64,000 nucleotides of DNA from Pycnococcus provasolii (taxonomy: Eukaryota > Chlorophyta > Pseudoscourfieldiophyceae > Pseudoscourfieldiales > Pycnococcaceae), in the NCBI GenBank assembly GCA_938743325.2, contig OW568872.1, forward strand, positions 558,001 to 622,000. The letters are read 5' to 3'. The notes under the pieces are model-generated. The model searched no databases. It worked only from the letters and a program-made list of their open reading frames with translations, and was not told the origin of the DNA. A program made the translations under genes and the position numbers. How positions within the stretch are numbered: position 1 is the first letter of the stretch; the number at the start of each line of letters is the position of its first letter. Shown here piece after piece: positions 14,809 to 57,752 of the stretch.

Positions 14809-15111
14809 TGTTTTTGTTTTTGATTTTGATTTGAAAAAATATATAAAAGGGACCCGGGGCACACACACACACCTCGACAGGCGACAGATGGCATCTGCTT
14901 TCCATCGAGAATTGAGGAGAATTCGATCGAGGTCATCAGGGGTTTCGGGGGGGCCTATCCCCTATGTGATATTTGGCAAACCCCTAACCTTTCTCCCTCG
15001 TTAGGGTTAGGGTTAGGGTAGGGTTAGGGTTAGGGTTAGGGCTCCCCCTCCCCACGCCCCACGGGGCTACCCACTCGTTTTACATATTTGGTAGTACTAG
15101 AATTAATGAGA
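14809..15111. other. Divergent promoter spacer, kinesin / glycosyltransferase
   Basis: A 303-base head-to-head spacer with a TATA-like string (ATATATAAAAGGG, about 14838-14850, plus orientation), a CA run (14862-14871), a G run near 14945 and the TTAGGG array at 15001-15041. No ORF of note. Confidence 0.6.
15001..15041 (+). repeat. TTAGGG telomere-like array
   Basis: About seven TTAGGG units with one slipped unit (TAGGG) in the middle. It lies in the spacer between two divergent genes about 70 bp upstream of the glycosyltransferase ATG, so it is interstitial, not a chromosome end. Confidence 0.85.
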
Positions 15112-16703: not shown

Positions 16704-16736
16704 CCCTAACCCTAACCCTAACCCTAACCCTAACCC
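16704..16736 (-). repeat. CCCTAA telomere-like array
   Basis: Five perfect CCCTAA units plus CCC, about 200 bp upstream of the coiled-coil gene start. Interstitial. Confidence 0.85.
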
Positions 16737-18462: not shown

Positions 18463-19902
18463 CTAACCGTATGAATTACTTCGTCTGGACATCGCACGCT
18501 GGGCAGCCTGTCGACGGTACCAAGCTGGAGGAATAGGGCGTCGCGAAAGTGTCGACCGACGCAAGCCTCCAGAACTAGGTCTAGAGGACGACGACGGCGG
18601 CGGCGGCGGGTCCCTCGGCGCACGGCCTTTCCTTAGCGCTGCCGTCTTCACGGTCGGATCGTCCGCCGTGCACACCGTGGCATGTCCCGCAAGGTGCAAC
18701 AGTCGCACGAATGCCGCGTCAAATGTCCAGCTGTGACCCCCGAACATAATTGGGCCACCGCTCACGTAGTGCCCTCCGCGCGATCGAAGCTGCGCTTCGT
18801 CATACGTAAACCCATAGAGGCTGAGCGGGTACTGGTCGCATAAAATCGCCATGAGGATCATCGCGTGGATGCCGCTTGAAAGAGCCTTGGGGCAGTTGAA
18901 TGGGCCGAGACCAAGTGCCAGCAAGTCGCGTCGTGCCTGCCAGTACACCTGATATACCGCGCGGCTCGCATCAGGGCTGAAGAGGCGCGGTGTCACGCGG
19001 CGGTACAACCTCTTCATCGTCGGAAAGTCGGAGACAGACTCGTAGTTCCAAAAAAGCCAAGTCTCAGACGCGGAGAGGCTGAGCTGCTGACCCATGCCCG
19101 TACGTATGCCCGTGCATCTCCGTCGTGTGCAACCAGACGCCTCCGAACCTCGGGGTCGGTTGAACACGCGGTGCGTTGTGCGCGTTCCCAGGCGCAGTGT
19201 CTGGCTTCCCACCGAGGCTGCGTTGAAGCGCGCGACGTGGCTGTGCGCGTCTATAGACGCGCCATTTCGATTGAGCATCGTAAGCGGTCCATTGGCTATC
19301 AACGCGCACGTACCCGCCAGTTTCTTTGGCATATCCATCGCAGGTCGCGCGCTCTGGGGGTAGAACTTGCCGACAGGTAGGTAGGTGTCGACGTTGCCCA
19401 CCAACCGGCCGCACCGGCTGGTTCGCGTAACACTCACGCACTTAACTTTAGACCGCCTCAAGTTTCTGAGAAGCTTCATGGATGGCAGCGACGCTGCCTG
19501 TGCTGCAGTGACTTCCGCCCTTGCGCCACTCGAAGCGCATCCCACGTCGTTCTGCAGGCAGAGAGCTAGCGCGGAAAGCTGGCGCTCAGTCTGCATGCCG
19601 TGGTTGCGCGGCTCGCGCAAGCAGTACGGACTCGGACTCCACTGTCCGGACGAATCGCCCTGCGTGCGTCGCACGCGAGGCAACGTCACCGCACGCAGGC
19701 CCTTCGTCGGATCATCCGGAACACCCTTAGTAGCAAGTTGGTTCATGTTCAGCGGCGCGGTCGAGCTGTTGAACGGGCTCCACGGAAACGGAGCACCGTT
19801 GCACACGCCGAGTTTCTGGCCATGCGCGTGGTTGATAGATCCGGCGAGGACGAGCGCGCAGTAGAGTACCGCCGACGTGTTGAGGAAGCGGCCGGCAGCC
19901 AT
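18463..19902 (-). CDS. GT29 sialyltransferase-like protein, copy 1
   Basis: A 479-aa protein from ATG 19902. The N-terminus (residues 1-28, MAAGRFLNTSAVLYCALVLAG) is a signal peptide or type II anchor, fitting a Golgi enzyme. GT29 sialylmotif L is seen in GTCALIANGPLTM..GASIDAHSHVARFN (about 190-225), motif S in LSSGIHAMILMAILCDQYPL, and LYGF, and motif VS in GGHSWTFDAAF, where the usual downstream Glu is Asp. A second GT29-like gene lies 3.7 kb to the right. Acceptor and donor are unknown; algal GT29 proteins need not use sialic acid. The 3' tail is Pro/Arg/Ser-rich and probably disordered. The opposite-strand frame (19385-20016) is a shadow. Confidence 0.85.
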   Translation of the reverse strand: MAAGRFLNTSAVLYCALVLAGSINHAHGQKLGVCNGAPFPWSPFNSSTAPLNMNQLATKGVPDDPTKGLRAVTLPRVRRTQGDSSGQWSPSPYCLREPRNHGMQTERQLSALALCLQNDVGCASSGARAEVTAAQAASLPSMKLLRNLRRSKVKCVSVTRTSRCGRLVGNVDTYLPVGKFYPQSARPAMDMPKKLAGTCALIANGPLTMLNRNGASIDAHSHVARFNAASVGSQTLRLGTRTTHRVFNRPRGSEASGCTRRRCTGIRTGMGQQLSLSASETWLFWNYESVSDFPTMKRLYRRVTPRLFSPDASRAVYQVYWQARRDLLALGLGPFNCPKALSSGIHAMILMAILCDQYPLSLYGFTYDEAQLRSRGGHYVSGGPIMFGGHSWTFDAAFVRLLHLAGHATVCTADDPTVKTAALRKGRAPRDPPPPPSSSSRPSSGGLRRSTLSRRPIPPAWYRRQAAQRAMSRRSNSYG

Positions 19903-23275: not shown

Positions 23276-23635
23276 CATGTGATATGATGCGACGACTCAT
23301 GTGAATGGATGAGTAAAACATATCTTTGGCAAAACCATTCGGGGTAGGGTTAGGATTAGGCCTCCCGCGCCGCGTCCCTGATTGTGTGACGGCGAGCGCT
23401 TGGCGCCGACAACAATGACAAAAAGTCGCAAGTGGAGCTCTCATGCCGGATGCATACGAAAAGCGGCTTGATAGTAGCTTCAAAATTACCAGCGCCATAC
23501 ACAAATGCGCTGTTGAATGGCGCCGCTGAACGGGCTGAATGTGGAGTGTGAATGGCGTGAATGGACGACCGTTTGACAAAGTAAAGTACACTCCATTACT
23601 GAATGAGCGATCTTAGGTCTCAAGGCGGCAGGTGG
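23276..23635. other. Convergent intergenic spacer
   Basis: A 360-base spacer between two 3' ends. It contains GGGTAGGGTTAGGATTAGG at about 23342-23360, the one telomere-like string found away from a promoter. No gene seen. Confidence 0.55.
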
Positions 23636-24673
23636 TCACGGATAGTACGTGACTGGCGTGGGAAGTGAGCCTTCGGGCATCGCCTCCATCGCACGCACGA
23701 TGGATGCCTCGAGGGCCGTATTGTGGTTCGACGTGAGGCCTCGGCCATTCTTGCCGTCCCAGTAACGCGGACCCATCGTTTTGGAGATACCAAAGACGCC
23801 AATCGACGCGCACAGCCGGCTGTACAGGAGGTGAAACAGCAGCACGTATCCCGAGCTGAGGTCAGGTCGATCCGATTCCTTGCCGCTGTGACGCATGCGA
23901 GGCCGCAGTCCCATCGCGATGTCAACCGCCTTCTCCGCCGCACCACGGCTAGCCTCACTTAAGCTGGCGTAGTTGAGGTTTGGAAAGCCGTTTGTGCCGT
24001 TCGCGACGAACGACGCGTAGATCATGATAGGCTTGCCGCTTCCTCCCGTAATCTTGCGCACGGTCGCGTCGCGCCCACCGCCCATACTCGCATATTTGAA
24101 GCCGTTGTGGTCAACACCGGCAAAAACGCCCTTAGTCGCGCGCAGCTTGCGCGTGCGTATGTATATGAAGCCAGCGCGACTGCCCGCGTTCTTCGCGTAC
24201 TTTGCAAGCGGGATGAGACCAAACCGAAAACTCGTGTCGTGCTCGTCAATCAGCTCACCGCGTGGGTTCATCATTAAGTTGGAACCAAAGGCAACGAGCG
24301 CACACTTGCCGAGCGAGCGAAGGGGCACGTCAGTTACGGTAGACACCTCTTCCTCTGTCAGCGTGTGGTACCACGACGGATGATTGCGAAATGTTTTGGG
24401 TTGTCGCAGTTCACCAATTTTCGTCTCGTAATTGTGCCAGCTAGCCGTGATCACGGGCATGCCCGGCTTAACACAAGCGCGTGTGTAAAACGTGCACTTA
24501 GTGTCAACGTCGCGAAGCATAGCCTGTATTTGCGCAGCCTTAGACGAAGAGAGATCTCCCACTGAACGCCTTCTGGAGCGTCCGGAACGCGCGCGACCCT
24601 CTGATGTGATGGGAAAAGCTGCGACGTGCGCAATCACAACGAGCGTTGTCAGGAAAAGAGATCGAGCGTGCAT
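23636..24673 (-). CDS. GT29 sialyltransferase-like protein, copy 2
   Basis: A 345-aa protein from ATG 24673. Residues 1-20 (MHARSLFLTTLVVIAHVAAF) form a signal peptide or anchor. Sialylmotif L reads GKCALVAFGSNLMM..GELIDEHDTSFRFG (about 120-150), motif S reads LSSGYVLLFHLLYSRLCASI with GVFGIS, and motif VS reads HNTALEASIV with the His and Glu at the expected spacing. It is shorter than copy 1 and diverged from it, so a recent tandem duplication is unlikely. Probably a Golgi glycosyltransferase acting on surface glycans; the sugar is not known. Confidence 0.85.
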   Translation of the reverse strand: MHARSLFLTTLVVIAHVAAFPITSEGRARSGRSRRRSVGDLSSSKAAQIQAMLRDVDTKCTFYTRACVKPGMPVITASWHNYETKIGELRQPKTFRNHPSWYHTLTEEEVSTVTDVPLRSLGKCALVAFGSNLMMNPRGELIDEHDTSFRFGLIPLAKYAKNAGSRAGFIYIRTRKLRATKGVFAGVDHNGFKYASMGGGRDATVRKITGGSGKPIMIYASFVANGTNGFPNLNYASLSEASRGAAEKAVDIAMGLRPRMRHSGKESDRPDLSSGYVLLFHLLYSRLCASIGVFGISKTMGPRYWDGKNGRGLTSNHNTALEASIVRAMEAMPEGSLPTPVTYYP

Positions 24674-31511: not shown

Positions 31512-31529
31512 TTACCCTAACCCTAACCC
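31512..31529 (-). repeat. Short CCCTAA tract
   Basis: Two CCCTAA units plus flanking matches, 45 bp upstream of the cathepsin ATG (minus strand), so it would be read as TTAGGG in the gene's own direction. Confidence 0.7.
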
Positions 31530-31624
31530 AAAATCTTGTCATACCAATATCTACTAAAATCTTCACTTTATATTGGCAGTCTTAAAGTTACACATCATAT
31601 CACATCACATCATACAACTACTGT

Positions 31625-34600
31625 TCACTTCTTCTTCTTCTTCCCAGGTCCCTTCTTGCCCTTGCCTCCGCCGCGACGACCTCGCGAGGCACCACCTCTC
31701 GGGCGTCGACGTCCGTCACCTGATGGGAGAACGCTTAATATGACGTCGTCTTCGTCTTCGTCGTCTTCGTCGTAAACTTCTTCTTCTTCTTCGTCGATTT
31801 TGGCGTCATCATCATCTATCTCATCAGGTGTTCGTGCCTCTTCCTTCTCGGCAACGTGCATCACCGACGCCGTCGTTGTTTTGGCTTTCGTTTTCTCCTC
31901 CTCCTCCTCCCCCTCGTTCGATTTCACGGCTATCGGCACTTTCCTCGGCACTTTTGTGCTCCGCGGAGCTCTCGGCAGGCACTTTTCTGCGCTCTTTGTA
32001 TTGCCCAGCGCGAGGTACAGCTGCCGCGCTAACATCGGGTAGCCTCCGTAACGCAAGCATGCAGCCGCCTCGGGAGCCCACGTCACCCCCTCGCGCGCCT
32101 CCAGGAACAGCTGTGCCGCTTCGTATCGCATCTGCACCTGTCGCACCTTGTCCCTGCTGTTGCTGCCGCTCTTTGCTTCCGAAGACTCCATCACGAGGTT
32201 CAAAGCATCCGCCGCAGCCTGCTTGCGCCGCTCGCCGGCATGCTGGAAGCAGAATGCCGCCTGCTTGTACAGCTTCTTGTCCATCATGCTCTGGCCACGT
32301 TCGAGCCACTCCTCCTTTGACGATTCCCTGCCTCTCGCGAGCGTAATGCCGTCAGGATCCAGCCCCTTTGAGATGCGACGAACAAGCCCGCGAACGCCCC
32401 AGAGCTTGAACATCGGCGCGCGAGCCTTAATGTTCTCATCGTACACCCACAGATTGACGCGAGCGCGCGTAATCGCCGTGTAGAGAGCACGAAGCTCGTC
32501 GAGGAGCAGCTTGTGCCTCTCTGGGTTGAATTCAAGCCGGCGAGCCTCCCTGCCCTCAAGCCTTGCGACGTCACTATTCTCCTCCTCAGGAACCGCCGCG
32601 GACGACTCTCCTCTCTCACCCGCCTCCTCGAGAAGCTCGAGCACGCATCGCCACTCGTTATTCTTCGTGGGGCTATCCGAGAAGAAGTTGAAGAGCAGCA
32701 CGTCGGTAAACTCAAGGCCCTTGGCCTCAAAGACGGTACAAACGATGCTATCTCGCAATGCTGCTGGCAGGCGCCTCTTTGCCTCTTCGTCACGGACGAT
32801 GATCACCTGGCCTGCACCAAACTCGATGTGCCCCTCAGCCTTGTTTCCTGAATACAGCAGAAGCACGAGCTCGTCGAACGAAGCAGCCTCCAGCAGACAG
32901 GGCAGCGGCCCATCGAAAAGGCCGGTGTCAGGCTCCTGCGTGTCAATCGAAAAAGGGAATAGATTCTGCATCAGCTCGATGCAGATATTCGCACAATTCA
33001 AAATACCGGAATGCGTTCGCATGTTGTGAACGAGCTTGTATGGGTCGCGAGGTACAACAATGCTTGTATGATGCCTCTGGCTCAGATGGTAGAAGATGCT
33101 CTTCAAGTCCTGAAAGCGAAAGCTGAGGCCTCGTGCGATGCACTGTGCGGTGTCGCCCGTGAAGAACATCTTGTTAGGCATGGCACTGATGTGAACGAGA
33201 AGAGCCAGCTCCGCCTCGGTGAAATCCTGCACCTCGTCGACGTACATAGCGTGCAGCGGCGCACCAGTGTATCCCGTGCCGGCGGCACCCTCGCCCGCCC
33301 TCGCCTGGTCGAGAAGGCCACGCCATATGTGGTGCACCAGGTCGCAGGCGTCGAATCCACGAATGCCAGCCTTCTTACGCTCGTACGCCTCGAACATTCG
33401 GTACACATCTTCGCGGTTGCCCGTGAAGTTCGGCGCTCGCTTCGCCCCGACGCTTTCGTACTGCTCGAGAGAAAGTGCGGTCACTCGCGTTCTCTGCGCA
33501 ACGTCCACGTTCACGTCGTCATTGTCGCCGTCGCCGTCGCCGTCGCCGTCATTCGCGAACGGCTTGAGCACCGCCTCCACCGACCCCTTAATGAAGGATA
33601 TGATCTCTGACCAAATGAGCGCGGGTGAGTACTTGCTTTCGCCACCAGGAACAGTCTTGCAGATAGATGGCCACAGCTCTCGGGAGAAGACGTCGTAGTC
33701 AATCTCCTTAGCGTAGCGTGAGCTCTTTTTGAACTTCGTCGACCCTGACGCTGTCACCTGCTCTTGATCCCCCATCTCCTCCTCCATCTCCTCCTCCGAC
33801 TCCTCCTCATCTTCGCCATCTTCATCGCTGTCGATGTCGTCATCCTCATCATCGAGGAGGGCTTGCATTGCCGATTTCTCAACAGGGCCCCATGCAAGGC
33901 GGGCACCCTCGCGAGACAAAGTGCCATCAGGGCCGCTGCGCGCGAAAAATGGATGCCGAAGTGTGCCGTCGATGAGCACAAGAATCTCACGCTTCGTCAC
34001 GAAGAGCGGAAATTCCGCGTCGGACGCAGATGACAGGCTAGGCGTCGCCAAACCACACATGTCGCGATCCGACGGGGGAGTTGCGGGAGGAAGTCGAAGT
34101 TGCGTCGCATCGTCCTCCGCACCACGGATGAGGCTTATGACGAGCTTTCGCACCTCCGACCGAAGGACAGGGTTTGCTGTCACAAAGCACTGATGGTAGG
34201 AGGAGGAAGAACTTTCATGTGACGCCCCAACGCTAGCAGCGGTGGCGCCGCGAAGCAGTCCGGACGGGTCACCGCCGGTAAACTCGCGCCAGAGACGGTA
34301 TTGCGCCCACATGCGGAACACAAGGCATGTCGTCTTTCCGGTGCCAGACCTGCCCAGTAGCAGCATACTCTCCATGCTCCCCTTTGAGTTGTCTAGTCCT
34401 AGCTTGCAGATGTCATCCTCGTGCTTGCTCAGGCGAAACGGGTAGTCCACGAGTTCCTTGGTCTCACTGACGAACCGATCCATCAGCGATGAGAGCATGG
34501 GACCCGTAAATTCGTAGAATTTGATCAAAGTGTATGAATCCTCGGAGGGCAGCGCGGGTGGATACCACAACACTGACATCGCGCTGTCATCTATCACCGC

Positions 34601-37600
34601 ATCATCGTCATCTAGCTTCTCTAGCTTGTCCTGAAGGTCAAGCGGAAGGATTGCTCCCGCCATCTCGTCCGCCACTGGCTCAAGTAGACGAGGAAGCTTC
34701 AGCTGCACACCTGCTTTACTCTCGCGCTGATCGCACTGCGAAGTTTTTCCCACAAAGCGCAATTTACGCTTCAGATGGCTTAACTTTCCCTTGCGATGGG
34801 CATTATACACGCGGTCGATCGCGGCGTCCTGGTCATCATGCTGATTTAGGATGGCCCAAACGCGGACCACCTCCGTCCATGACTGCAACTTGCTCGAGTA
34901 ACCCACCGCACGCTCCCAGAGGATCCTACCACCTTTGGAGAAGTTTGCCCGAAACAGGTTGAAGGTCGCGTCGCCATACTTGGTCGTTCGCTGACGTGCA
35001 TCCGAGGCCCAGTCTCCCTGCGCAAGGCACTGCAACTGCTTCGCGACGGAGGCACGATCGATTGGCGACTCGAGGCGCTCCCACTGAAGTCGTGCTTCAC
35101 GGGTTAGCTCCATCTCCCATGCAGCGTCTTTCACCCAGCTGCGAAGATCGTCAATCTCCTTCTTCCACTGCCGAGCGGTAGGAGTAGATGTCGGTGGCTC
35201 ACCTGTGATGCGATTTGCACCGTCAGGCACCTTCTCTTCTGAATCAACATCTTTGTCCAGGGCAGTCACGTCTGTTCCAGCCGTGACTGGCGAACGACTT
35301 ACCTCCTTCCCTTTTCCAGCTTCCTTCTGTTGACTGTGCTCGTCTGACACCTTGGACGCTTCGATCGCGGGTTCGAGGGACGCCTGCATTCTTAACACAT
35401 CCTCGAGTTCCCGCGACGCCTCAGCCACAATGCGTGCGATCTTTTGTTCCTCGGTATCTTCCTCACGCGCAATACACTCTGCCGGCTCCCCGTCATCATT
35501 GTCTTCGACGTCGACGTGCTTTTCGCGCGCAGCATCATTCTCTGCCGCCTTCTCCAGTTTTTTCATGCGCTGAATCTTCCGCTTCTCGGCGTTCTTCTTC
35601 TTGCGGATCTTGTCTCGTTTGGCCTTGATCATCTCCTTGATCCTTGATCCTTGCTCACCGTCATCCTCTGTGCAGTCGTCCGCCATTTTGTTTTCGGCAT
35701 TAAGAGACGAAGGATTCGCATCAGTCTCGTCCAAAATCAGGCGTACGATGTCCAACTTGCTCAGACGTGCGCACATGTGTAGGAGCGGGTATCCCGAAAC
35801 ACAGGAGGATGCCCCAACTAGATCTTTTGCGCTCGTGGGGATGTCATTTATCTTCAGGGAGCCCTGTTCGAGTAAGCCAAGGAGAAGTAGACGAAAATTC
35901 TCATAGCGTTTGCCGGCGATTTCAGCCTCCACAATATGGCTGACAGCAAAATTAGGAGCAGAGAGAATGTTCACGATAAGCTTCTCCGCGAGCTGTGCCT
36001 GTCTCTTCGAAAGCTGCAGGTTCGAGGACGCGCCGCAGAAATCCATCCATACGCAAAAGTCATCGAAGGTTTTGACATGTCTCCTCCTCTCCTTGAGCTG
36101 GGATAAGGTCAGCAGATCGAGCTGCACCTCGGGAGCCAATGCAATTTGGAGATCTGAGACTTCAAAGTCGGGCATACCCAACTTCTCCGGTTCGATCTCT
36201 CGATCTTGGCCATCAGACTGCGCCTGCAGGAAGTCGCCGGCAACTTTTGGCGCAATCTTGCGCCAAACGTCGTCGTCACGAAAGAGGAGGAATTCCAGGA
36301 ATGTTAGGCAATCCATCCATGTTGTGTCCCACGATTCTATGCGGTCGATGCTCTTCTTGATCGTCACATCCTTGTGTGTGCTGCCGTGCGCCGGCTTTTC
36401 ACCATTCACTTCGGGAACTTCGTAGCGCTCAAAATTCTCCGAAGCCACCCACTTCTCAATGATACTGTCAGACAGCCTCTTCCGAATTTGAGCAGCACGC
36501 GTCAGAGTGTCTTCCATGCGAGAGCTTGGATCAGACCGAATCCGCTTGGGATCGCATGAAGCATTCACAGGAAGCTGCGGCTCGTGTTCGATGGTGCCCT
36601 CATCTCTCTTGAAGATGCCCCTTGGAACGGTTATCACCTCTTGTGCTTCATTGTCGACGAGGTAGAGGTTGCTCTTGTGCTTCAACGCCGCACGTGGCTC
36701 GAAAACGACATCGCGTGGGCACGCATTGATGCAATCATGAGCTTTTAGATCTAGCTCACACGGCGTTTTTGTTTCATCGATCTCGTCTCCATTAATGCAA
36801 AACTTCACGCTTGAACGGGTCACACCGAGACACTCAACGCAGTAGTATATGAGATAGTCAGAGACTGGCTTCTCACTATCCACGTCGATGCAAGCCTTGT
36901 ATGGAAACGAGTCGAAAGAATGCCCATAGGCGTCTTCCCAGTCGATGACAAGAGTAATTCTCGTGCCATCGTTGGAAACGTCGCTGTCGTCGCCACTCTC
37001 GCGGGATTTATGCATAGTCTTCCTGAATGAAGCATCCATGATCCTTTCGTTCAGCAGCTTGGAGGCACGACAAGACGCCTCGCGATCCTGCGTCGTGGGC
37101 ATAGGCAGAGGCAACGGCTCCTTGCCCTCGAGTGCAAGGTAACCATTAGACAGCTCCGCCATGACCACCATGAGGATTTGCGTTTTTTTGGACAAAACGG
37201 CATCTCCAACTTGCGCATGCCATCTCCCATGAGTGGGGGCTTTTTCTGTGAAATTCAAACGAATCTCCTTTGACCAACGGCCAAAATCGTTCGCGGAAAT
37301 AGCTCCAGCAAGGTGAGGAGGCAGCTTGGATGAGTTTACGGATAAGCACGGATCCAAAGGGGCGCGGACAAGGTCATCAAGCGGCAGTGTTGGACCCCTC
37401 TCGAGCTTGTAGGTTGCTGAGGCCAGTGCTTCCGGCGTTGGAACGGTATCGGATATGGTATACAGATGCTCGAAAATGCTTCTATAAACTGTTCCGACGA
37501 CTTCGGCGGCGGCTTGCGCAACACGCGTCTGGTTTCTCTGCGTGATGAAGTACGTATCTTCTTCGTGCTCCTTGTCGTCGCCACGAATCAAGAACTGAAC

Positions 37601-38923
37601 GCGCTCGGACCATGGCGCAGCCTGCACAGGGTCACCTGATGAAAAGAAACGCACGAGATTTTCCACAGGAAGAAGCCTAACCTGAAGCTTCCTTCGCACC
37701 GACCATAGCACCGTCACCTTATCATCTTTGACAAGCCTTCCATGTGGGATGAAGCCTACCCTCCCATTAGCAGCTGCTAGATCTCCCGTAAAGCCACGAA
37801 GAGTGACTGTTGTGTACGGTGCAAACAGTCGGCGGATGTCCACACGCTTCCTGACGACTTCAGGCGAGATTTCCTGATGCAGCATCACCGAGTTCGTTGG
37901 CCTTTCAATCAAGCGAAGTTTCGAAGACGTTGCACGATCATCTGACGGGTCGGTTCGCATCCAGATAGATAACAGCGATGACCGATCATCTCCATCCGTC
38001 TTGCCTCCTTCACTCTTACGCGACGCATCGACGATACCTTGTTTCGACTCGAACGTAAGTCCTACCGTCACGCGCGTTCCGATGGAAAAGGGTTCCGGCG
38101 GCATGATCAGATCGTCGTCGTCATCATCGTTATCGTTGTCGCTGCTTTTTTTTCTACGGCCTTTCCTTAATGGTGATGTCGTCCGACGACTCTGGCGCGC
38201 TTTCTTTGGTGCGTATTCCAGGGGATCGGAGTCTGAGTCTGACCCATTTTGTGTCAGCTCTGCGTCACTTTCGACATCAGAATCAGATGCTAAAGGTGGT
38301 GGATCGTCGCTGTCGCTGCTTGAATCATCGAATTTTTGGGAAGAGCGAGCGCTCTCACTGTCGCTTTCAGACCGTGAGCTTCTTAGAGATGGCGGCCCCT
38401 CGTCGCCCGACACATCGTCACTGCTATCCTGAAGCGACGGCGGTCCCGAGTCTGAGTCTGAGTCTGCACTCACACTCGCACTTGATGCGTACTGCTGCTG
38501 CTGCTGCTGCTGCTGCTTGACATAATCAGTGGCCTTCACCTCGAAGACGCAGACGAGCTCGTCGATGAGATCACGCCACCTTCCAGCCTCGCCCACGAGC
38601 TTCTCGAGGTGGTCATCGTCCATCCGTTCTTCCAAACCTGGAGACGATCGAAGAGCGCTGATAAGCGAGTCGTACGCGGCGCGCACGCCTGGATCTTTGA
38701 CAGACTCTTGCATCAGCGCTTTCTTCGTGTCTTTCGGCATGTCTGCGAGCAGAAAAGGGCATCGTCGTTTGAGAACGAGCAGCTGCGCGCCGAGTGCGGC
38801 GTTCCACACTCGTTTTTGTGCGTCGCGGCTGTCAGCATGGTCGGCGCCTACTGCTTTGTGCTTGTTAGTATTGCTGGATACGCCGAGCGGCTGTATTGCG
38901 TCGTTGTACACGGAGGAGCTCAT
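31625..38923 (-). CDS. TRANK1-like SF1 (UvrD/Rep-type) helicase with ankyrin and TPR-like parts
   Basis: A 2,432-aa single-exon protein from ATG 38923. The N-terminal 300 residues are acidic and Ser/Asp-rich with a poly-Gln run (coded at about 38494-38517). An ankyrin-like segment (LLHMCARLSKLDIVRLIL) lies near 1050. The helicase core starts near 1515: LLLGRSGTGKTTC (Walker A), MYVDEVQDFTEAELALL (Walker B, about 1895), FFTGDTAQCIARGLSFRF, NMRTHSGI, TVFEAKGLEFTDVLLFNF and LYTAITRARVNLWVYD. TPR-like repeats (KLYKQAAFCFQHAGERRKQAA) follow, and the tail is acidic then poly-Lys. The layout matches TRANK1-type proteins; nucleic-acid target and role are not known. Codon use and GC match neighbours, so contamination is unlikely. 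Confidence 0.88.
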   Translation of the reverse strand: MSSSVYNDAIQPLGVSSNTNKHKAVGADHADSRDAQKRVWNAALGAQLLVLKRRCPFLLADMPKDTKKALMQESVKDPGVRAAYDSLISALRSSPGLEERMDDDHLEKLVGEAGRWRDLIDELVCVFEVKATDYVKQQQQQQQQYASSASVSADSDSDSGPPSLQDSSDDVSGDEGPPSLRSSRSESDSESARSSQKFDDSSSDSDDPPPLASDSDVESDAELTQNGSDSDSDPLEYAPKKARQSRRTTSPLRKGRRKKSSDNDNDDDDDDLIMPPEPFSIGTRVTVGLTFESKQGIVDASRKSEGGKTDGDDRSSLLSIWMRTDPSDDRATSSKLRLIERPTNSVMLHQEISPEVVRKRVDIRRLFAPYTTVTLRGFTGDLAAANGRVGFIPHGRLVKDDKVTVLWSVRRKLQVRLLPVENLVRFFSSGDPVQAAPWSERVQFLIRGDDKEHEEDTYFITQRNQTRVAQAAAEVVGTVYRSIFEHLYTISDTVPTPEALASATYKLERGPTLPLDDLVRAPLDPCLSVNSSKLPPHLAGAISANDFGRWSKEIRLNFTEKAPTHGRWHAQVGDAVLSKKTQILMVVMAELSNGYLALEGKEPLPLPMPTTQDREASCRASKLLNERIMDASFRKTMHKSRESGDDSDVSNDGTRITLVIDWEDAYGHSFDSFPYKACIDVDSEKPVSDYLIYYCVECLGVTRSSVKFCINGDEIDETKTPCELDLKAHDCINACPRDVVFEPRAALKHKSNLYLVDNEAQEVITVPRGIFKRDEGTIEHEPQLPVNASCDPKRIRSDPSSRMEDTLTRAAQIRKRLSDSIIEKWVASENFERYEVPEVNGEKPAHGSTHKDVTIKKSIDRIESWDTTWMDCLTFLEFLLFRDDDVWRKIAPKVAGDFLQAQSDGQDREIEPEKLGMPDFEVSDLQIALAPEVQLDLLTLSQLKERRRHVKTFDDFCVWMDFCGASSNLQLSKRQAQLAEKLIVNILSAPNFAVSHIVEAEIAGKRYENFRLLLLGLLEQGSLKINDIPTSAKDLVGASSCVSGYPLLHMCARLSKLDIVRLILDETDANPSSLNAENKMADDCTEDDGEQGSRIKEMIKAKRDKIRKKKNAEKRKIQRMKKLEKAAENDAAREKHVDVEDNDDGEPAECIAREEDTEEQKIARIVAEASRELEDVLRMQASLEPAIEASKVSDEHSQQKEAGKGKEVSRSPVTAGTDVTALDKDVDSEEKVPDGANRITGEPPTSTPTARQWKKEIDDLRSWVKDAAWEMELTREARLQWERLESPIDRASVAKQLQCLAQGDWASDARQRTTKYGDATFNLFRANFSKGGRILWERAVGYSSKLQSWTEVVRVWAILNQHDDQDAAIDRVYNAHRKGKLSHLKRKLRFVGKTSQCDQRESKAGVQLKLPRLLEPVADEMAGAILPLDLQDKLEKLDDDDAVIDDSAMSVLWYPPALPSEDSYTLIKFYEFTGPMLSSLMDRFVSETKELVDYPFRLSKHEDDICKLGLDNSKGSMESMLLLGRSGTGKTTCLVFRMWAQYRLWREFTGGDPSGLLRGATAASVGASHESSSSSYHQCFVTANPVLRSEVRKLVISLIRGAEDDATQLRLPPATPPSDRDMCGLATPSLSSASDAEFPLFVTKREILVLIDGTLRHPFFARSGPDGTLSREGARLAWGPVEKSAMQALLDDEDDDIDSDEDGEDEEESEEEMEEEMGDQEQVTASGSTKFKKSSRYAKEIDYDVFSRELWPSICKTVPGGESKYSPALIWSEIISFIKGSVEAVLKPFANDGDGDGDGDNDDVNVDVAQRTRVTALSLEQYESVGAKRAPNFTGNREDVYRMFEAYERKKAGIRGFDACDLVHHIWRGLLDQARAGEGAAGTGYTGAPLHAMYVDEVQDFTEAELALLVHISAMPNKMFFTGDTAQCIARGLSFRFQDLKSIFYHLSQRHHTSIVVPRDPYKLVHNMRTHSGILNCANICIELMQNLFPFSIDTQEPDTGLFDGPLPCLLEAASFDELVLLLYSGNKAEGHIEFGAGQVIIVRDEEAKRRLPAALRDSIVCTVFEAKGLEFTDVLLFNFFSDSPTKNNEWRCVLELLEEAGERGESSAAVPEEENSDVARLEGREARRLEFNPERHKLLLDELRALYTAITRARVNLWVYDENIKARAPMFKLWGVRGLVRRISKGLDPDGITLARGRESSKEEWLERGQSMMDKKLYKQAAFCFQHAGERRKQAAADALNLVMESSEAKSGSNSRDKVRQVQMRYEAAQLFLEAREGVTWAPEAAACLRYGGYPMLARQLYLALGNTKSAEKCLPRAPRSTKVPRKVPIAVKSNEGEEEEEKTKAKTTTASVMHVAEKEEARTPDEIDDDDAKIDEEEEEVYDEDDEDEDDVILSVLPSGDGRRRPRGGASRGRRGGGKGKKGPGKKKKK

Positions 38924-48354: not shown

Positions 48355-50277
48355 TTACATTGTTGTCTTTGGTCCCATGTGGTAGCCGCTGCCATGCTTA
48401 TCGTGCTCGAGCGCTTGCACATACGCATCCGCGTAACACCTCGCATCTGGATCGTCCATTCCTGACTGAGAAGTTCGGCAGCACTGCTCCCAACGTCGAT
48501 ACAATTTGCACACGTCAATGTTCTCTCGCAGAGCGCTCAAGTCAAGCATGTGCCGTTGTGCCTCAACAAGCCACTGCTCTCCGAGGGTGACATCTCGTGC
48601 CGACGCATTGGCTCGGCAGCTTTCCTTCGTCGCCTTCGCCACATCGCGAGGCTTGACGTGCGCCAAAATATTCTCGTCCCAACACACGAAGTAATAATCG
48701 CCATCCAGATCCCCGTCAGCGCACAAGCTTGGTAGTGGAACATTACCCTTGGTGCTAAAGATAAGCGCGCCAAACGGCAGCTTAGAGAGCCAATCCCACG
48801 ACACGTTGTCAATCCCACGTGGCTTTGTCGAGCATACGATGGGTAGCAGGCGGCCATCCTCAGGCTTCACGCAGGGGCTGCGCGTGACGAAAATGCGTTC
48901 ACTCGACAAGTTGTCCGCTGGCATGCCAGTCACGTAAACGTGCCCCTCGGGTAAGTTTCCAGTGGGGTCTGCAACGCCAACGAGCCATGCAAAATCCGCG
49001 CTGTAGTCGTTGCGGCGAGATCGTGCCGTGAGCGACTCGACATGTTCAGGTGGAACATCCAAAGTGGTCAATAATAGGGACACCATGTCACTCAGCGGCT
49101 TTTTTCTATTGTGCATCGGCGTCTTCGGCGAAGCACGTGGCGCTTCACCGCGAATCCTTTCTCCAAGCCTCATGTTGTGCGTGGTGGGATGCATCATCCG
49201 CACCAGAAGCAACGCCCATTCGTCGTCGTCGTCTTCATCATCGCCACGTTGTTGCGCAGCTGGCACCTTGCGCATTGAAGGCGTCAGCTGAATCTTGTCT
49301 GTGAATGGAGATCTCATCAAAACACCCTTGAATAAACCGAGACGTGGCGCAATCACGCGCACTTGAAGAGACACGATGGCACGAGCCGCATCTCCATAAA
49401 GCTTTGTCAGGACCTCGTCTCCAATGAAGCCACATCCATCCGCCATAACGTCACGAGAAGATTCAAGTTCGAGCACCTCAAAGTCATCGTGGCGCAAGTG
49501 CATAGCTCCCGCCTTTGCACCGCATCCTGACGTGCGGCTGCAAAGTAGCTCAAGACGACTCGCCGCCTTGCGCCCGTTCGGCAGCATGTCAAAGGCGGCA
49601 AATTGGGTCAAACGGGACGCCAGGTTTATTGAAGGCATATTTGGTGATTCTGTGACGGCGTAGTGCAGCGTGACCGTTTTTCGACCGAAGAAACGCCCTG
49701 CTCCGCCGGAATCCGTGTCTACTTTGCGCGCAACAAGTTCAAGTTTTTTTCCGTCTGTGAATATGACGCTGGGGGGCAGCGCTTCGTCCGTATTTGCACG
49801 AGAAGTCGGCATGCCCAACTCGAAACTCACAAGCCTCCCACCGAGCCACAGCGACAAGAAGCTCGTCCCTTCTGGAGACGTTTCCTTCAGCGACTTGAGC
49901 GTACACTTCGTGACACGCAATGACTCGCCAACGCACCAAGCGCCGGCACCACCGTCCAACTGCCACGATGCGCGAGGCTTAGACTTGATTCTCTTAACAG
50001 CAGCTAAACTTGCATCACGTTGTTTCCCACCGCCGTCGTTTTGTCGCCGGCGTTCCGACGTTATGTCTTCAATTAAGTTAAGTTTTGTTCGTCTATTTCT
50101 GCCACCCACGTTTTTCGCCACGCAGAGACCTTCGTCGTCGATCAAATTGCGTAGCTGCGCAAGCGACAGCGCATGGAGCAGCTGGGTGTTGTCGTTGTCG
50201 TGGTTGTCCTGGTTGTCTTCACTTGCATCAGCCTCCCATCCTGCAAAAATCGCTCGCCTAATCGTCTCCAAGAGCAT
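48355..50277 (-). CDS. Cellular (eukaryotic) RNA-dependent RNA polymerase, short form
   Basis: A 640-aa protein from ATG 50277; the frame extends two codons further only from a GTG. RDR-family landmarks in order are LTQFAAFDMLPNGRKAASRL, MADGCGFIGDEVLTKLYG (the DGCG block), APRLGLFKGVLM, RIFVTRSPCVKPEDGRLLPI (the TRSPC-type block), STKPRGIDN, and the catalytic DGDLDGDYYFVCWDE (about residue 524), with three catalytic Asp in the DLDGD motif typical of the alpha clade. It would copy RNA into double strands for small-RNA silencing. It is about half the length of plant RDRs: the N-terminal RRM-like and part of the head seem absent or diverged, replaced by an Asp/Asn-rich start. There is no sign of viral origin. 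Confidence 0.88.
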   Translation of the reverse strand: MLLETIRRAIFAGWEADASEDNQDNHDNDNTQLLHALSLAQLRNLIDDEGLCVAKNVGGRNRRTKLNLIEDITSERRRQNDGGGKQRDASLAAVKRIKSKPRASWQLDGGAGAWCVGESLRVTKCTLKSLKETSPEGTSFLSLWLGGRLVSFELGMPTSRANTDEALPPSVIFTDGKKLELVARKVDTDSGGAGRFFGRKTVTLHYAVTESPNMPSINLASRLTQFAAFDMLPNGRKAASRLELLCSRTSGCGAKAGAMHLRHDDFEVLELESSRDVMADGCGFIGDEVLTKLYGDAARAIVSLQVRVIAPRLGLFKGVLMRSPFTDKIQLTPSMRKVPAAQQRGDDEDDDDEWALLLVRMMHPTTHNMRLGERIRGEAPRASPKTPMHNRKKPLSDMVSLLLTTLDVPPEHVESLTARSRRNDYSADFAWLVGVADPTGNLPEGHVYVTGMPADNLSSERIFVTRSPCVKPEDGRLLPIVCSTKPRGIDNVSWDWLSKLPFGALIFSTKGNVPLPSLCADGDLDGDYYFVCWDENILAHVKPRDVAKATKESCRANASARDVTLGEQWLVEAQRHMLDLSALRENIDVCKLYRRWEQCCRTSQSGMDDPDARCYADAYVQALEHDKHGSGYHMGPKTTM

Positions 50278-50487
50278 CTCCACACAGAGCTCTTCTCCAC
50301 ACTCGCTTGCGACGAGTTCGTTCGGGCGTTTGTGTGTGTGTGTGAGGGGTCGCTCTATCGGGTCTGGACACCTGGTCTGGACTCTGGCATCGGGGAGCTG
50401 TCGAGGGGGCGAGGAGTGAAGACGAGGAGGGGTTTCAGAGGGGTTTGGGGGTCTTGGGCGTGGTTGGGGTTTACAGGACGAGTCACG

Positions 50488-51363
50488 TCAGTGCCATGTC
50501 GAAGGATCGGCTGTCACAACTGACTTTGGAGTCAAATTGATTGGCGCGTCGTAGTCGAAGGCTGGGTCAAGCGCAAAGACTTCCACGGCGTCCACCTCAT
50601 CCGGTGTTGACGTCTCCGCCACATTGTTCCGCAACGCGATATCTGGCAAGACTCCAACCGTTGGGGCTTGACGGTCTGATGAAGGTTCCACAGGATGTGA
50701 CTCTTCGTCGGCGACTTCGACATCAGGCGCCGCTCCCTTGACCTTAGAATTATCGCTACCGACGATGACGACATCGTCGTCATCGTCGTCATCGTCGTCG
50801 TCGCCAAGGGCCGCCTTGGCGTCCGCCGCGGCGGCGTTAGCCACCACTTCTCCTGGATATGTGGCCTCAGTGGCACTTGCCAACCAAGGAGGCAGCGCGC
50901 TGCAGTTGTCTTCACCTTCGTCGTCGACAAAGTTGTCAAGCTTGGCCATTCGTGGACTTTCAAGGCAAAAACCAGATCCAGAGTCGCCGGATGCGATCTT
51001 CTCCTCGACCAAGTCGTCGTCGTCGTCGTCGTCGTCAGCGCCGAGCGCCGCTGTCGCATCCGCCGCAGCGATGCGTCTTGTTCCCGGTGCACCAGGTATA
51101 CCATCATACCACTCGCCAGGCTCAACGTCAAGCTCGTCGCCGTGAATTCGCGCAGCCTCTCGCACGTCGTTAGGCATGTCTTTGCCGTCGCTAAGAGGCT
51201 TGCCGTTGCTGTCAAGGCGCAGACTGGCAAAGAAAGCCTCCTTAGTCTGCACCGGCCCGAGTCCCGTTGCCGCTAAGGTCTTTTCCGCGACTGCGACAAG
51301 TTTTTCCTCCTCCTCGGCCGTTAGCGGTGCGCTCGACTCGGTTCTGTAACCAGGCCTTGCCAT
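50488..51363 (-). CDS. Acidic protein with duplicated module and SUMO-interaction-like motif
   Basis: A 291-aa protein from ATG 51363 (MARPGYRTESSAPLTA). It carries a module twice: AAADATAALGA followed by eight Asp, and AAADAKAALG followed by ten Asp. The second copy leads into VVIVGSDNS, so the acidic run plus VVIV is a textbook SUMO-interacting motif pattern. Other parts are Glu/Asp/Ser-rich (ESPRMAKLDNFVDDEGEDN) and end with the block VFALDPAFDYDAPINL. No fold is recognised; it is probably disordered and perhaps nuclear (inference). It is tandem with the RdRP gene (210 bp between) and divergent from the adenylation-domain gene. Confidence 0.7.
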   Translation of the reverse strand: MARPGYRTESSAPLTAEEEEKLVAVAEKTLAATGLGPVQTKEAFFASLRLDSNGKPLSDGKDMPNDVREAARIHGDELDVEPGEWYDGIPGAPGTRRIAAADATAALGADDDDDDDDLVEEKIASGDSGSGFCLESPRMAKLDNFVDDEGEDNCSALPPWLASATEATYPGEVVANAAAADAKAALGDDDDDDDDDDVVIVGSDNSKVKGAAPDVEVADEESHPVEPSSDRQAPTVGVLPDIALRNNVAETSTPDEVDAVEVFALDPAFDYDAPINLTPKSVVTADPSTWH

Positions 51364-51440
51364 TGAATCCTTACGAAATGGGAGTGCGGCCGCGGGCTCA
51401 ACAGGGGAAATCTCTAAGGAATAAGACAAGGACGGGGTAA

Positions 51441-51458
51441 GGTTAGGGTTAGGGTTAG
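51441..51458 (+). repeat. Short TTAGGG tract in a divergent promoter
   Basis: Two and a half TTAGGG units in the 218-bp spacer between the acidic protein gene and the adenylation-domain gene. Confidence 0.75.
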
Positions 51459-51581
51459 TCCAGGGTATGCCTCTTTCCACCCACTCATTTCCCCAATAAT
51501 GCCGAAGCGTGACGGAAGGGCTCGCCGCGCGATGGCTGGGGGTTGGTGACGGCGGCGAAAGCCTCTCGAACGAGCAGGAGG

Positions 51582-54500
51582 ATGTCGAGATACCGTGAAG
51601 GCGGAGCAGGTGCTGACGTCACCACCAACCACCTCGAAGCAAGATGCATAGTTGAAAACCTTCGAGCGGGTGTTGGCACGTTACTGCACGCGGACTCCTT
51701 GGAAGATGCGCCGCCGTTCACCTCCGAGCCGAGCTCGCGAGGTGTGTCAGCACTCACTAGTACGGACTTGCATTTCCTCGCCACGCGTGCGGGTGCACGC
51801 CTGCTCGCTTTGGCTAATGGGATGTCAAACAAAGCTTCTGTGGCAATAACGTGTGACAGCTCTTGGCCTCTTGTTGTGAGCATGTTCGCCTGCACGCTTG
51901 TCGGCCTGCCTTTCGTACCCGTCGATCTCGCACATCCCGTCAATCGTCTCGCCGACATCCTTACTGTCGTCGCGCCGTGCGCCGCGGTTATCTTCGAACG
52001 TGCCAGCCTGCCCGCGCACGACTCTGCACCTCTGCAACTTGCGTCCGTGGTTCAAGCGAAAGCGGTTTCGATTGACGAGCTCGTTGCAGACGGGAGTCCG
52101 GTGGCAACTTTGGGAATCGTGGACGCGGTGGTAACGGACGCCACAACGCCGTGCTACCTCGTCTTCACATCTGGGTCCACAGGCCGTCCCAAGGGCGTTG
52201 TGTGCTCACACGCCGCGATCGGAACATTCGCCTGTGCAAAGGCGGCGGCGGATCGACTTCTGGATGTTGGTGACGTAGATAAGAACAGCGCGCCTTGTCT
52301 TTCCAGCGCTCTTTGTCATGAAGCTGCACTACAGCCGCCAGTTAAGGAGAAGATTGCCGACAACAGCGAACGTCCAGCTGATCATAACGTTGTGCTGCTC
52401 GTTGCCGCTCACACCTTTGACCTGACGCATGGGGATGTATACGCCACGGCAGTTGCAATGACATACGGAAGAAGCAGCCTGGCTGCACCACGCCGTGCTC
52501 GGACGAGAGCCAATCTTGTTGATCTTATCAACATATTCAGCGCCACGCACCTCAGCATCACACCCGCGGTATGGTTGCTCGCTGGCGCACAAGCGGGGCA
52601 GGGTCCCGCGCCGCACGAAGTTCCCACAATGCGATGCATCAACCTTGGTGGCGAGCCTTTGCCGCCACGTGTTGCCGCCCAGTGGCATGGCATCTTTCGC
52701 TCCAGGCCAGGAAACTCGCGCGCACTTCACCCAGTCCTACGCAACATCTACGGGTGCACCGAGGGTACTGTCGTTCAATGCTTCGACGACATTGTCGACG
52801 GCGACGCTGGACGATGCGTTGGGCGGCCGTACAGTTGCGCGACGATTCTTGTCGTCGCAGAAGATGCGGATGGTGAGGACGACCTCGACCTGCATATCTG
52901 CCAGCCGGGCGAACGTGGGCGCATCGTCGTCGGTGGCGGAGGGCTTCTCGGCTGTGGATATGCCACACATGAAGAGCCACTTTTCGTGATGCGTCCGCCA
53001 TCGAGGAAGCCGGCGGGCTCAATGGGCTACCTTGGCACGCATCCACGGCACGGCCCACTGTTTGACACAGGGGATCTCGGACGTATGGTGAGTTCCATCG
53101 AGGGGGAAAACTGCAAACTAAAGCTGCATCTGAATGGCAGAACGGACGATTTGGTCAAAGTACATGGCGGCAATCGTGTTCACCTGGGAGACGTTGAGTC
53201 GGCACTGCGAGCGCTACCGATCGTCAGTGCAGCTGTATGTACGTGTCTGCCAGAATACGATGGCAGTCTATCGGCACACGTTGCACTTGTTGAAATAATG
53301 GATCCTCACTCAGGGAACGATGACGAAGAACTTGAAATAAAGAATGCGTGGGCCTATCGATCTAGAGCGTTTACAGCGATGAGAGCGAGGCTCACGAAAG
53401 TCCTTCCCATCGCGCACATTCCAAGCGTATGGCTTCCCATGGGCGGCAAAGCATCTCCACATGTGCCGTACACAGAATCGGGGAAGCTTGACCGCAATGT
53501 GCTTCGCGAACGTCACATGGAAAGTATGCGTGATAGATCATCACATACCACAGCATCGGAAGTTGCGTTCTTGCCAACAGATACCCTCGAGGAAACAATT
53601 GCACAAACGTGGGCCGATTCGCTTGGACTCGCGGCTCTTCCCGGAAGCAATCGTGGGGGAGGTAGCGGATTTGTCGGGGCGCCCGATGACATTACGGCAC
53701 GACCAAATTTCATCCACCTCGGTGGAACTAGCCTGCACGCGCTGCGCTGCTCCCAGATGCTAGTACAGCGCCTAGACGCAAGCGAAGACGTGCGATTAGA
53801 CGTATCTGTGACTGCATCGGCAACTCACTACATCGCGGAAGGCATTGGTGTAGCTGGAGATCGTGCTACTGCAGCAGCACCGATCCAAGCGGGACCAGCA
53901 TGTGCCTTCGGCGACGCGCTTGGTGCACTCGCACCACACGAGCTTCTTCGTCGACCAGATTTTGATGAATTTGTCGCTTACGTGCGCAGTACACTTGGCA
54001 AGCAAATTGAAACAGGAACGATGGCATCCCCACCATCATCGAAAGCATCTGATGATCTTGATCGTGCTCTTACATGGGCGTGCGCAAGAGGCTATCCACG
54101 CCTCGTGGCATCCTTGATAGGCGCAGGTGCGGGTTCAGGGGAGCATGCTGCGAATGATGCGCTACTTGCTGCGTGCGCAAGCGGCCATCCTAATGCCGAA
54201 CGTGTCGTGCGTATGCTCGTCCACGTGGGTGCGTCGCCACTTGCAATTGGCTCTGAGAGCGCTCATGTTGCATTTGCAAGAGGACATTCTGCAGTTGTGC
54301 GCGAGCTTCTTTGTCATATTGGCACAGCTGAGGGATGCGCAGAACTTCTCTCGCGGTGCGATGCCGCTGGAAGAACACCGATACACTATGCGGCAATGTG
54401 CGTTGACGGAATTGCCGGTGTCTCGTGCTTGATGCTTGCGAATGCGTCCGTGAAAGGTGAAGGGATTGAGTTAGACGCACGTGATGACGCACATATTGCA

Positions 54501-55541
54501 GAGGAATGTCATTGGTTAAGCTGCTTAGGAATTGACTTAACCAATAGAGCTGAGCAAATTGCGTTGGTCATTGGCAAGATTGACGACGCAACCTGCATCT
54601 GGAATGCTCCTGACTCCATTGCGGGGGACTCTCCAACGGATGCAGCTGCCATGCATGGAAACGTGGCTGCGCTTACAGCCCTTCGCTCCTTTGGGGGCCA
54701 GGCAAGAAACCGGCAAGATTTGGCGTCAATGCTGTTGTCTTGGTTGCAAGAGACCGAAGATCGAGATGTCGAAAGGGGCGACCAGCCGAATAAGACACGG
54801 TATGCCAATTCTTCAAGAAGTGGTCTTCCGCCAATGCGTGCAGCTCGCAAAGAGTCTGACGACAGTGTTGCTGTGCGTCGACTTTTAGAGGCTGTTTGCG
54901 ACGCTACGAAGCGCGTGTGGCAACGAGCGCCTCCGTCGCGATTGGGGACTGGAACTCCGGATCTGCGAAGTGCAACGGAAACGCTACGTAATTTAGTATG
55001 CGCCAACGCGGCGAATCGCTCCGCTGCTCTCGACGCCGGAGCTGCTGACGAACTGATGGGGTGCGTCGCTTGTCTTGTATTGATGAGTGGCTGCCTCGAA
55101 CGGTCAGACAGCTTTGAGAGCGACCTTGTGAAGATTGCAGTTGCTTTCGTCGAGAAGAATTCGGAAAAGTCCTCTAAGTATGAACTAGGCACATGCAGTG
55201 CACCGGGTGAAACCATGATTGGTGCCGCGCTTATTGAGATCCTTGGAATACTCCGCAATCTGGCTTTCGGCGCAGTTGGTGGCAAGTCGGAGTTGCGCCA
55301 TTGCGGAGCCGTACCTGTGCTATGTGAGCTTGCAAATCGCGGCTTGGGCAGCGAGCGCGGCGCTCTTCGCATGGAGGTGGGTCGAAAAGCGGCGGCGGCC
55401 CTTATGTCCCTCATGCAAGGTGATGCAGTGAATCGCGATCTCGTTTCCTCGTATCCAGGCACAACAGACTCGATCAGTCACTACTTTCAAAGCGGACGCA
55501 AGGCAGACTCGGCAACATTAGTAAAACTTCAAAAGATGTAA
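51582..55541 (+). CDS. Adenylation domain - carrier protein - ankyrin - armadillo fusion
   Basis: A 1,319-aa single-exon protein from ATG 51582. Residues of about 60-640 form an ANL adenylation domain: LVFTSGSTGRPKGVV (about 193), YGCTEGTVVQ (about 390), LFDTGDLGRM (about 493), GRTDDLVKVHGGNRV (about 520) and ESGKLDR (about 634). A carrier domain follows (ETIAQTWADSLGL, then HLGGTSLHALR at about 715), whose Ser should take phosphopantetheine. Residues of about 825-960 contain ankyrin-like repeats (DRALTWACARGYPRLVASLI, GRTPIHYAAM). The last 200 residues look like armadillo repeats (ETLRNLVCANAANRSAALDA, LRNLAFGAVGGKSEL). No condensation, thioesterase or reductase domain is present. It should activate a carboxylic or amino acid onto its own carrier; what then takes the acyl group is unknown. 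Confidence 0.88.
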   Translation: MSRYREGGAGADVTTNHLEARCIVENLRAGVGTLLHADSLEDAPPFTSEPSSRGVSALTSTDLHFLATRAGARLLALANGMSNKASVAITCDSSWPLVVSMFACTLVGLPFVPVDLAHPVNRLADILTVVAPCAAVIFERASLPAHDSAPLQLASVVQAKAVSIDELVADGSPVATLGIVDAVVTDATTPCYLVFTSGSTGRPKGVVCSHAAIGTFACAKAAADRLLDVGDVDKNSAPCLSSALCHEAALQPPVKEKIADNSERPADHNVVLLVAAHTFDLTHGDVYATAVAMTYGRSSLAAPRRARTRANLVDLINIFSATHLSITPAVWLLAGAQAGQGPAPHEVPTMRCINLGGEPLPPRVAAQWHGIFRSRPGNSRALHPVLRNIYGCTEGTVVQCFDDIVDGDAGRCVGRPYSCATILVVAEDADGEDDLDLHICQPGERGRIVVGGGGLLGCGYATHEEPLFVMRPPSRKPAGSMGYLGTHPRHGPLFDTGDLGRMVSSIEGENCKLKLHLNGRTDDLVKVHGGNRVHLGDVESALRALPIVSAAVCTCLPEYDGSLSAHVALVEIMDPHSGNDDEELEIKNAWAYRSRAFTAMRARLTKVLPIAHIPSVWLPMGGKASPHVPYTESGKLDRNVLRERHMESMRDRSSHTTASEVAFLPTDTLEETIAQTWADSLGLAALPGSNRGGGSGFVGAPDDITARPNFIHLGGTSLHALRCSQMLVQRLDASEDVRLDVSVTASATHYIAEGIGVAGDRATAAAPIQAGPACAFGDALGALAPHELLRRPDFDEFVAYVRSTLGKQIETGTMASPPSSKASDDLDRALTWACARGYPRLVASLIGAGAGSGEHAANDALLAACASGHPNAERVVRMLVHVGASPLAIGSESAHVAFARGHSAVVRELLCHIGTAEGCAELLSRCDAAGRTPIHYAAMCVDGIAGVSCLMLANASVKGEGIELDARDDAHIAEECHWLSCLGIDLTNRAEQIALVIGKIDDATCIWNAPDSIAGDSPTDAAAMHGNVAALTALRSFGGQARNRQDLASMLLSWLQETEDRDVERGDQPNKTRYANSSRSGLPPMRAARKESDDSVAVRRLLEAVCDATKRVWQRAPPSRLGTGTPDLRSATETLRNLVCANAANRSAALDAGAADELMGCVACLVLMSGCLERSDSFESDLVKIAVAFVEKNSEKSSKYELGTCSAPGETMIGAALIEILGILRNLAFGAVGGKSELRHCGAVPVLCELANRGLGSERGALRMEVGRKAAAALMSLMQGDAVNRDLVSSYPGTTDSISHYFQSGRKADSATLVKLQKM

Positions 55542-57724: not shown

Positions 57725-57752
57725 TTAGGGTTAGGGTTAGGTCCGTTAGGGT
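57725..57752 (+). repeat. TTAGGG tract in a divergent promoter
   Basis: GTTAGGG units (three in a row, then one more after GTCC) in the 176-bp spacer between the GT7 and peptidase genes. Confidence 0.75.

Follow-up and report, generated by a model that had tools for sequence, protein, structure and literature searches.

A predicted adenylation-carrier protein with ankyrin repeats and a helical C-terminal region in the green alga Pycnococcus provasolii

Related systems

In Symbiodiniaceae, monofunctional and probably trans-acting domains of polyketide synthases (PKS) and nonribosomal peptide synthetases (NRPS) are often fused with HEAT, ankyrin or PPR repeats, according to the part of PMC6361889 that treats them. 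In animals, ACSF4 and Ebony are single-module proteins using domains other than ordinary condensation domains, as the relevant passage of PMC10531068 describes. Here we analysed an open reading frame of Pycnococcus provasolii, located in a 64,000-nucleotide stretch (hereafter the window; contig OW568872.1 of assembly GCA_938743325.2, positions 558,001 to 622,000). Its product is predicted to carry an adenylation (A) domain, a carrier or thiolation (T) domain, ankyrin repeats and a helical C-terminal region.

Like the Symbiodiniaceae fusions, which are also algal, the protein combines a single NRPS/PKS-type unit with ankyrin or helical repeats. Compared by description only, it differs in that the order A-T-ankyrin-armadillo is not named in the passages concerned and armadillo does not occur in the main text (PMC6361889). 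ACSF4 (AASDH, the beta-alanine-activating enzyme; Drozak 2014, as cited in the passage of PMC10531068) is likewise a eukaryotic single module without ordinary condensation domains. Bacterial NRPS A-T modules have the same order and the same motifs, but belong to larger assembly lines in the annotated loci L004 and L005. In PDB searches with the A domain as a single query sequence, the beta-aminoacyl ligases 6m01, 5jjp and 5jjq score best; their solved chains (543-552 residues) correspond to about an A domain alone. The C-terminus of ACSF4 is a PQQ-type beta-propeller, and the algal protein ends instead in ankyrin and helical repeats; no propeller family was in its full-protein Pfam list, and the C-terminal models were helical at low confidence. 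Ebony of insects is also a single-module A-T protein, but has an atypical condensation domain (PMC10531068, same passage), and none was recognised in the algal protein.

The exact order A-T-Ank-(Arm) was not found in the open-licence literature, among the matches listed. The ankyrin protein in the section concerned of PMC10512218 is a separate gene of the cluster, and ankyrin is mentioned as a reference title in the portion of PMC4890743 that was matched. The first-pass annotation, which knew of no described system with such a layout, was too strong, considering the repeat fusions and the ACSF4 single module in the parts of PMC6361889 and PMC10531068 mentioned above. Because these papers describe repeat fusions and single-module proteins, a repeat-fused NRPS-like loader is of a kind already known; the algal layout is uncommon, with precedent.

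Proposed function

We propose, with about even confidence, that the protein is a stand-alone NRPS-like loader, which charges its own carrier with an amino acid and hands this on in trans to a partner docked on the repeats. The A domain would activate the amino acid with ATP and, once Ser717 carries the arm attached by a phosphopantetheinyl transferase, transfer it in cis to the carrier as a thioester. The partner would be kept close to the carrier by the ankyrin repeats together with the helical tail, and would receive the aminoacyl group; it could be an enzyme that supplies an amine or acyl acceptor, or a protein that is itself modified.

Competence for activation and loading is suggested by the conservation of key residues of the A domain and carrier, and priming of Ser717 is presumed. 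Docking and transfer are proposed by analogy only, the docking because such repeats usually bind partners. The sequence supports the loader reading through this predicted competence, the carrier, the ankyrin domain and the absence of any recognised release domain; that single NRPS/PKS domains fused to repeats have been described, in the part of PMC6361889 concerned, may also be counted for it. The earlier proposal, in which the repeats bind the partner of a loading carrier, is also the reading favoured here; it stood in its adenylation, carrier and ankyrin parts, the armadillo part being unproven and the docking proposed by analogy.

Adenylation domain

The adenylation domain noted in the first-pass annotation was confirmed. 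Pfam AMP-binding matched residues 57-455 (E 3.9e-40; 138.3 bits, cut-off 29.9). The NCBIfam model AA-adenyl-dom (TIGR01733), of which the best stretch extends to residue 552, gave E 1.2e-47, yet its 162.6 bits lay below the cut-off of 317.4.

For reference we aligned 119 bacterial stretches. They come from a set of 132 matches, found in 83 of 85 loci, from which 13 were left out because of coverage (480 query residues or fewer), strand or stops. The core motifs A3, A5, A7 and A10 are present. All 119 rows agree with the algal protein at Asp280, Tyr390, Gly391, Glu394, Gly497, Asp498, Arg520 and Asp522, and Lys635 is kept in 115 rows (three gaps, one Asn). In A8, Arg520, Asp522 and Lys526 are kept, with departures at other positions given below.

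Where the first code position is Asp, an amino acid is a likelier substrate than a plain carboxylic acid, and the Asp at A4 presumably contacts the amino group, as Asp235 of PheA. Asp280, which is Asp in all 119 rows, therefore favours an amino acid as the predicted substrate; of the two substrate classes proposed before, amino or carboxylic acid, the second is less favoured. The ten specificity-code residues, read from the 119-row alignment at the PheA positions, are DLGSNGIVVK, and a substrate match was not obtained.

Carrier, release domains and ankyrin repeats

The carrier with its LGGTSL motif, containing Ser717, was recovered as first described. A profile was built from the 91 of 119 bacterial rows that had the A10 and carrier (G-G-x-S) motifs and enough downstream sequence. 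It gave 27.6 bits on residues 639-850 and 22.2 bits in the full protein; none of 2000 shuffles of the carrier region scored as high, the top one reaching 4.3 bits.

Scanning the full protein with Pfam at E<=10, where the HMMER filters discard most matches above E of about 0.1, listed five families, and none was a condensation, thioesterase or reductase family. This agrees with the earlier statement that release and condensation domains are lacking.

The ankyrin identity of residues 830-939 is secure at the level of sequence. Ank_2 (E 8.4e-8), Ank_4 (3e-6) and Ank (2.2e-4) were above gathering and Ank_3 below, so the profile check of the C-terminal half upheld the ankyrin-like repeats. PDB ankyrin matches had a best E of 1.6e-6, and the full score of a typed ankyrin query (one, two or three copies) on residues 821-1070 was reached by 0 of 5000 shuffles. 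The features are collected in Table 1.

Table 1. Features of the predicted adenylation-carrier-ankyrin protein in the window
Feature	Residues	Position (nt)	Strand	Basis
Open reading frame, ATG to stop	1319 aa	51582..55541	+	No internal stop
Adenylation domain	57-638	51750..53495	+	Pfam AMP-binding, TIGR01733, alignment with 119 bacterial stretches
A3 FTSGSTGRPKG	195-205			
A4 Asp280	280			
A5 YGCTE	390-394			
A7 FDTGD	494-498			
A8	518-539			
A10 SGKLDR with Lys635				
Insertion of about 39 residues between A3 and A4	227-265	52260..52376	+	Alignment A1, relative to four bacterial A domains
Carrier (thiolation) core	660-738	53559..53795	+	Profile match, sub-threshold PF00550
Predicted phosphopantetheine Ser (LGGTSL)	717	53730-53732	+	Same residue in 112 of 119 bacterial rows (gap in six, Gly in one)
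Possible last carrier helix	781-797	53922..53972	+	By eye; mostly gaps in bacterial rows
Ankyrin repeats	830-939	54069..54398	+	Pfam Ank_2, Ank_4, Ank; PDB matches; shuffle test
Possible extra ankyrin repeat core GDSPTDAAAMHGN	1015-1027	54624..54662	+	By eye, sequence only
C-terminal helical region		54834..55538	+	Weak profile and shuffle signals; low-confidence helical models
Armadillo-like motifs, two or three	about 1127-1159, 1216-1251, 1265-1277			Identity unproven

C-terminal helical region

The evidence for an armadillo identity of this region is only suggestive. Pfam Arm matched two fragments of the protein below its cut-off (E 0.039 and 0.049; 14.5 and 14.2 bits, cut-off 20.6), Arm was unlisted in the full-protein scan, and phmmer of residues 1007-1319 gave no PDB match at E<=10. 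A typed designed-armadillo query was also used in one, two or three copies, with 5000 shuffles. Its full score was reached by 116, 17 and 24 shuffles on residues 1085-1319 and by 286, 50 and 74 on residues 995-1319 (0.3-6% overall), and its best-domain score by 570, 103 and 100 and by 837, 166 and 238, respectively. In a separate test on residues 995-1319, 19 of 2000 shuffles outranked the real sequence. The signal was absent in the A domain and ankyrin region, where 1681-1839 of 5000 shuffles matched the real score or no match was obtained.

AlphaFold models made without alignment were helical in the C-terminal part, with mean predicted local distance difference test (pLDDT) values of 41.9 and 46.3, and Foldseek with both low-confidence models found nothing at E<=0.001. 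The top fold matches were given no weight, the models being of low confidence: designed repeats (E 1.6e-3), beta-catenin (1.9e-2) and PPR10 (3.2e-2) for residues 775-1319, and designed and TPR repeats (6.4e-2, 0.15) and importin-4 (0.33) for residues 1085-1319. The armadillo-like repeats annotated here have weak motif signals, with no Arm match above cut-off, and stay unproven.

Points against the loader reading

Several observations weigh against a functional loader. The Pfam carrier family PF00550 was below gathering (E 0.11; 13.2 bits, gathering 20.8) and unlisted for the full protein, and the carrier has an 18-residue insertion ahead of LGGTSL. Several positions depart from the bacterial NRPS consensus: in A5, Cys392 (Pro in 108 of 119 rows); in A7, Phe494 (Tyr in all 119); and in A8, Leu524 (Gln in 118), His528 (Arg in 113), His534 (Glu in 117) and an inserted Gly529 (a gap in all 119). 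These departures might impair adenylation or thiolation. The content of G and C at third codon positions (GC3) is lowest, among 22 blocks of 60 residues each, in the block of residues 781-840 at the junction of the A-T and ankyrin parts (0.30).

No relative sharing this layout turned up among the matches listed from genome contigs, plasmids, viral contigs and four whole genomes. With a profile of alignment A1, which has five rows, four of them bacterial NRPS, the genome contigs gave at least 599 stretches and at least 444 relatives; 80 were kept (22-29% identity) and are presumed to be bacterial NRPS A-T regions. Searching plasmids by tblastn gave 192 records, all below 60% identity, and the four whole genomes all had matches, in short segments of up to 43% identity. 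In viral contigs, the full-protein, C-terminal and A-T queries gave 2, 6 and 13 pattern stretches, respectively, and no relatives.

Alternative explanations

The protein might be a single enzyme of the Ebony or ACSF4 type, whose loaded aminoacyl group would go straight to a small amine or macromolecule with no separate partner enzyme, and whose repeats would serve only to position it in the cell; we consider this unlikely. Both namesakes are known single-module animal proteins with alternatives to ordinary condensation domains (PMC10531068, same passage). The PDB entries that score highest against the single A-domain sequence also fit, being beta-aminoacyl ligases and kin: 6m01 (69.6 bits), named as a beta-aminoacyl-ACP synthetase, 5jjp (68.6) and 5jjq (67.8), followed by 7xbs (CmnG) at 56.6 bits. 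We take 5jjp and 5jjq to be beta-amino-acid enzymes, and GNRV in A8 is common to 6m01 and 5jjp. However, Pfam lists no catalytic domain besides the A domain, and the case for a beta-amino acid is weak. Best single segments were nearly equal for a Nocardia genome (53.3 bits) and 6m01 (53.7 bits), and with the A1 profile 5jjp came 59th among the 60 PDB matches listed and 6m01 outside these 60. The PDB ranking hints at a beta-amino acid, and we assign no substrate from it.

Less probable still, two adjacent genes may have been merged into one, the first coding for the A-T part and the second for an ankyrin protein that begins at Met814. The first-pass annotation described a single 3.96-kb exon; the uninterrupted frame of 1319 residues was confirmed, and its one-exon status is predicted from that open frame. 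The other five frames have 25-60 stops each over the same stretch. Frame 0 had the best codon score in 19 of the 22 blocks, the exceptions being residues 301-360 (a reverse frame), 361-420 (frame 1) and 1021-1080 (a tie). The codon score is weak in general, 0.10-0.30 per codon even for training genes, and ranged here from -0.06 to 0.28. GC3 is 0.50-0.65 across residues 1-540 and then 0.30-0.60 (training genes 0.54-0.70).

The GC3 dip at the junction lends this two-gene explanation more weight, and Met814 directly precedes the ankyrin part. By our estimate, a random stretch would stay open from residue 738, the last carrier residue with profile support, to Met814 in about 3 of 100 cases ((61/64)^75), and from the helix end placed by eye at residue 797 in about 46 of 100 ((61/64)^16). 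It is opposed by the lack of any stop codon between the two parts, by the codon score of the junction block, which is best in frame 0 at 0.21 (0.04 and -0.65 in the remaining forward frames, 0.14 in the best reverse frame), and by a GC3 that is low already at residues 541-600 (0.38), within the A domain.

A degenerate A-T protein, which lost loading and serves now as a scaffold, is improbable: the departures in A5, A7 and A8, the inserted loops and the low identity shared with the A-T regions of bacteria (22-30% among the tblastn matches listed, 30-32% in alignment A1) would suit it, but Asp280, Glu394, Asp498, Lys635 and Ser717 are retained. We might also speculate, at very low probability, that the protein is a eukaryotic ligase dedicated to amino acids. 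Its ankyrin and armadillo-type repeats would choose the protein to be aminoacylated, and the amino acid would come from the carrier thioester, making this a system of thiotemplated protein aminoacylation in an alga.

Genomic surroundings

Pfam was run at E<=0.001 on 30 of the 37 further frames in the window that encode 250 residues or more; the remaining seven all overlap other frames. The neighbours include a chlorophyll a/b-binding protein, Pbs27, PsbP, GUN4, Coq4, a kinesin and an XMAP215-type TOG protein. Considering these families, the window is probably nuclear DNA of a photosynthetic eukaryote, and the neighbours resolve it no further. None of the 30 frames matched an NRPS/PKS part, a condensation, thioesterase or NRPS/PKS reductase domain, or a phosphopantetheinyl transferase. 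Therefore the scanned part has no sign of a gene cluster, and the partner, if any, would be encoded elsewhere or in the unscanned frames.

Other genes of the window include an RNA-dependent RNA polymerase at 48355-50283 (-) (PF05183, E 5.2e-36), which we take to be of the family of RNA-silencing polymerases. Two frames belong to the glycosyltransferase family GT29 (sialyltransferase family), at 18463-19902 (-) (E 8.2e-11) and 23636-24673 (-) (E 1.6e-7). An open frame of 2432 residues at 31625-38923 (-) had only sub-threshold UvrD-like helicase matches.

Short arrays of telomere-type CCCTAA/TTAGGG (human-type) repeats were found near the predicted 5′ ends of frames, at 1871-1909 (7-base variant), 15000-15041, 16704-16736, 31515-31532, 51437-51460 and 57725-57742. 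Allowing up to two mismatches, CCCTAACCCTAA had 29 matches in the window against 1.47 expected, and none of 100 shuffles had as many; lone further matches are at 6209, 6266, 20187, 23338-23361 and 31109. The array at 51437-51460 is 122 bases ahead of the ATG of the A-T-ankyrin gene and within the 5′ part of a divergent frame, 50488-51480 (-), which encodes 330 residues rich in Asp runs and has no Pfam family at E<=0.001. The arrays could be promoter elements akin to plant telo-boxes.

Implications

If the protein is a loader as proposed, its built-in protein-binding tail would offer a direct route to the partner by pull-down. If it is merely a repeat-fused loader as in dinoflagellates, it would add one more layout among the NRPS-like proteins of algae.

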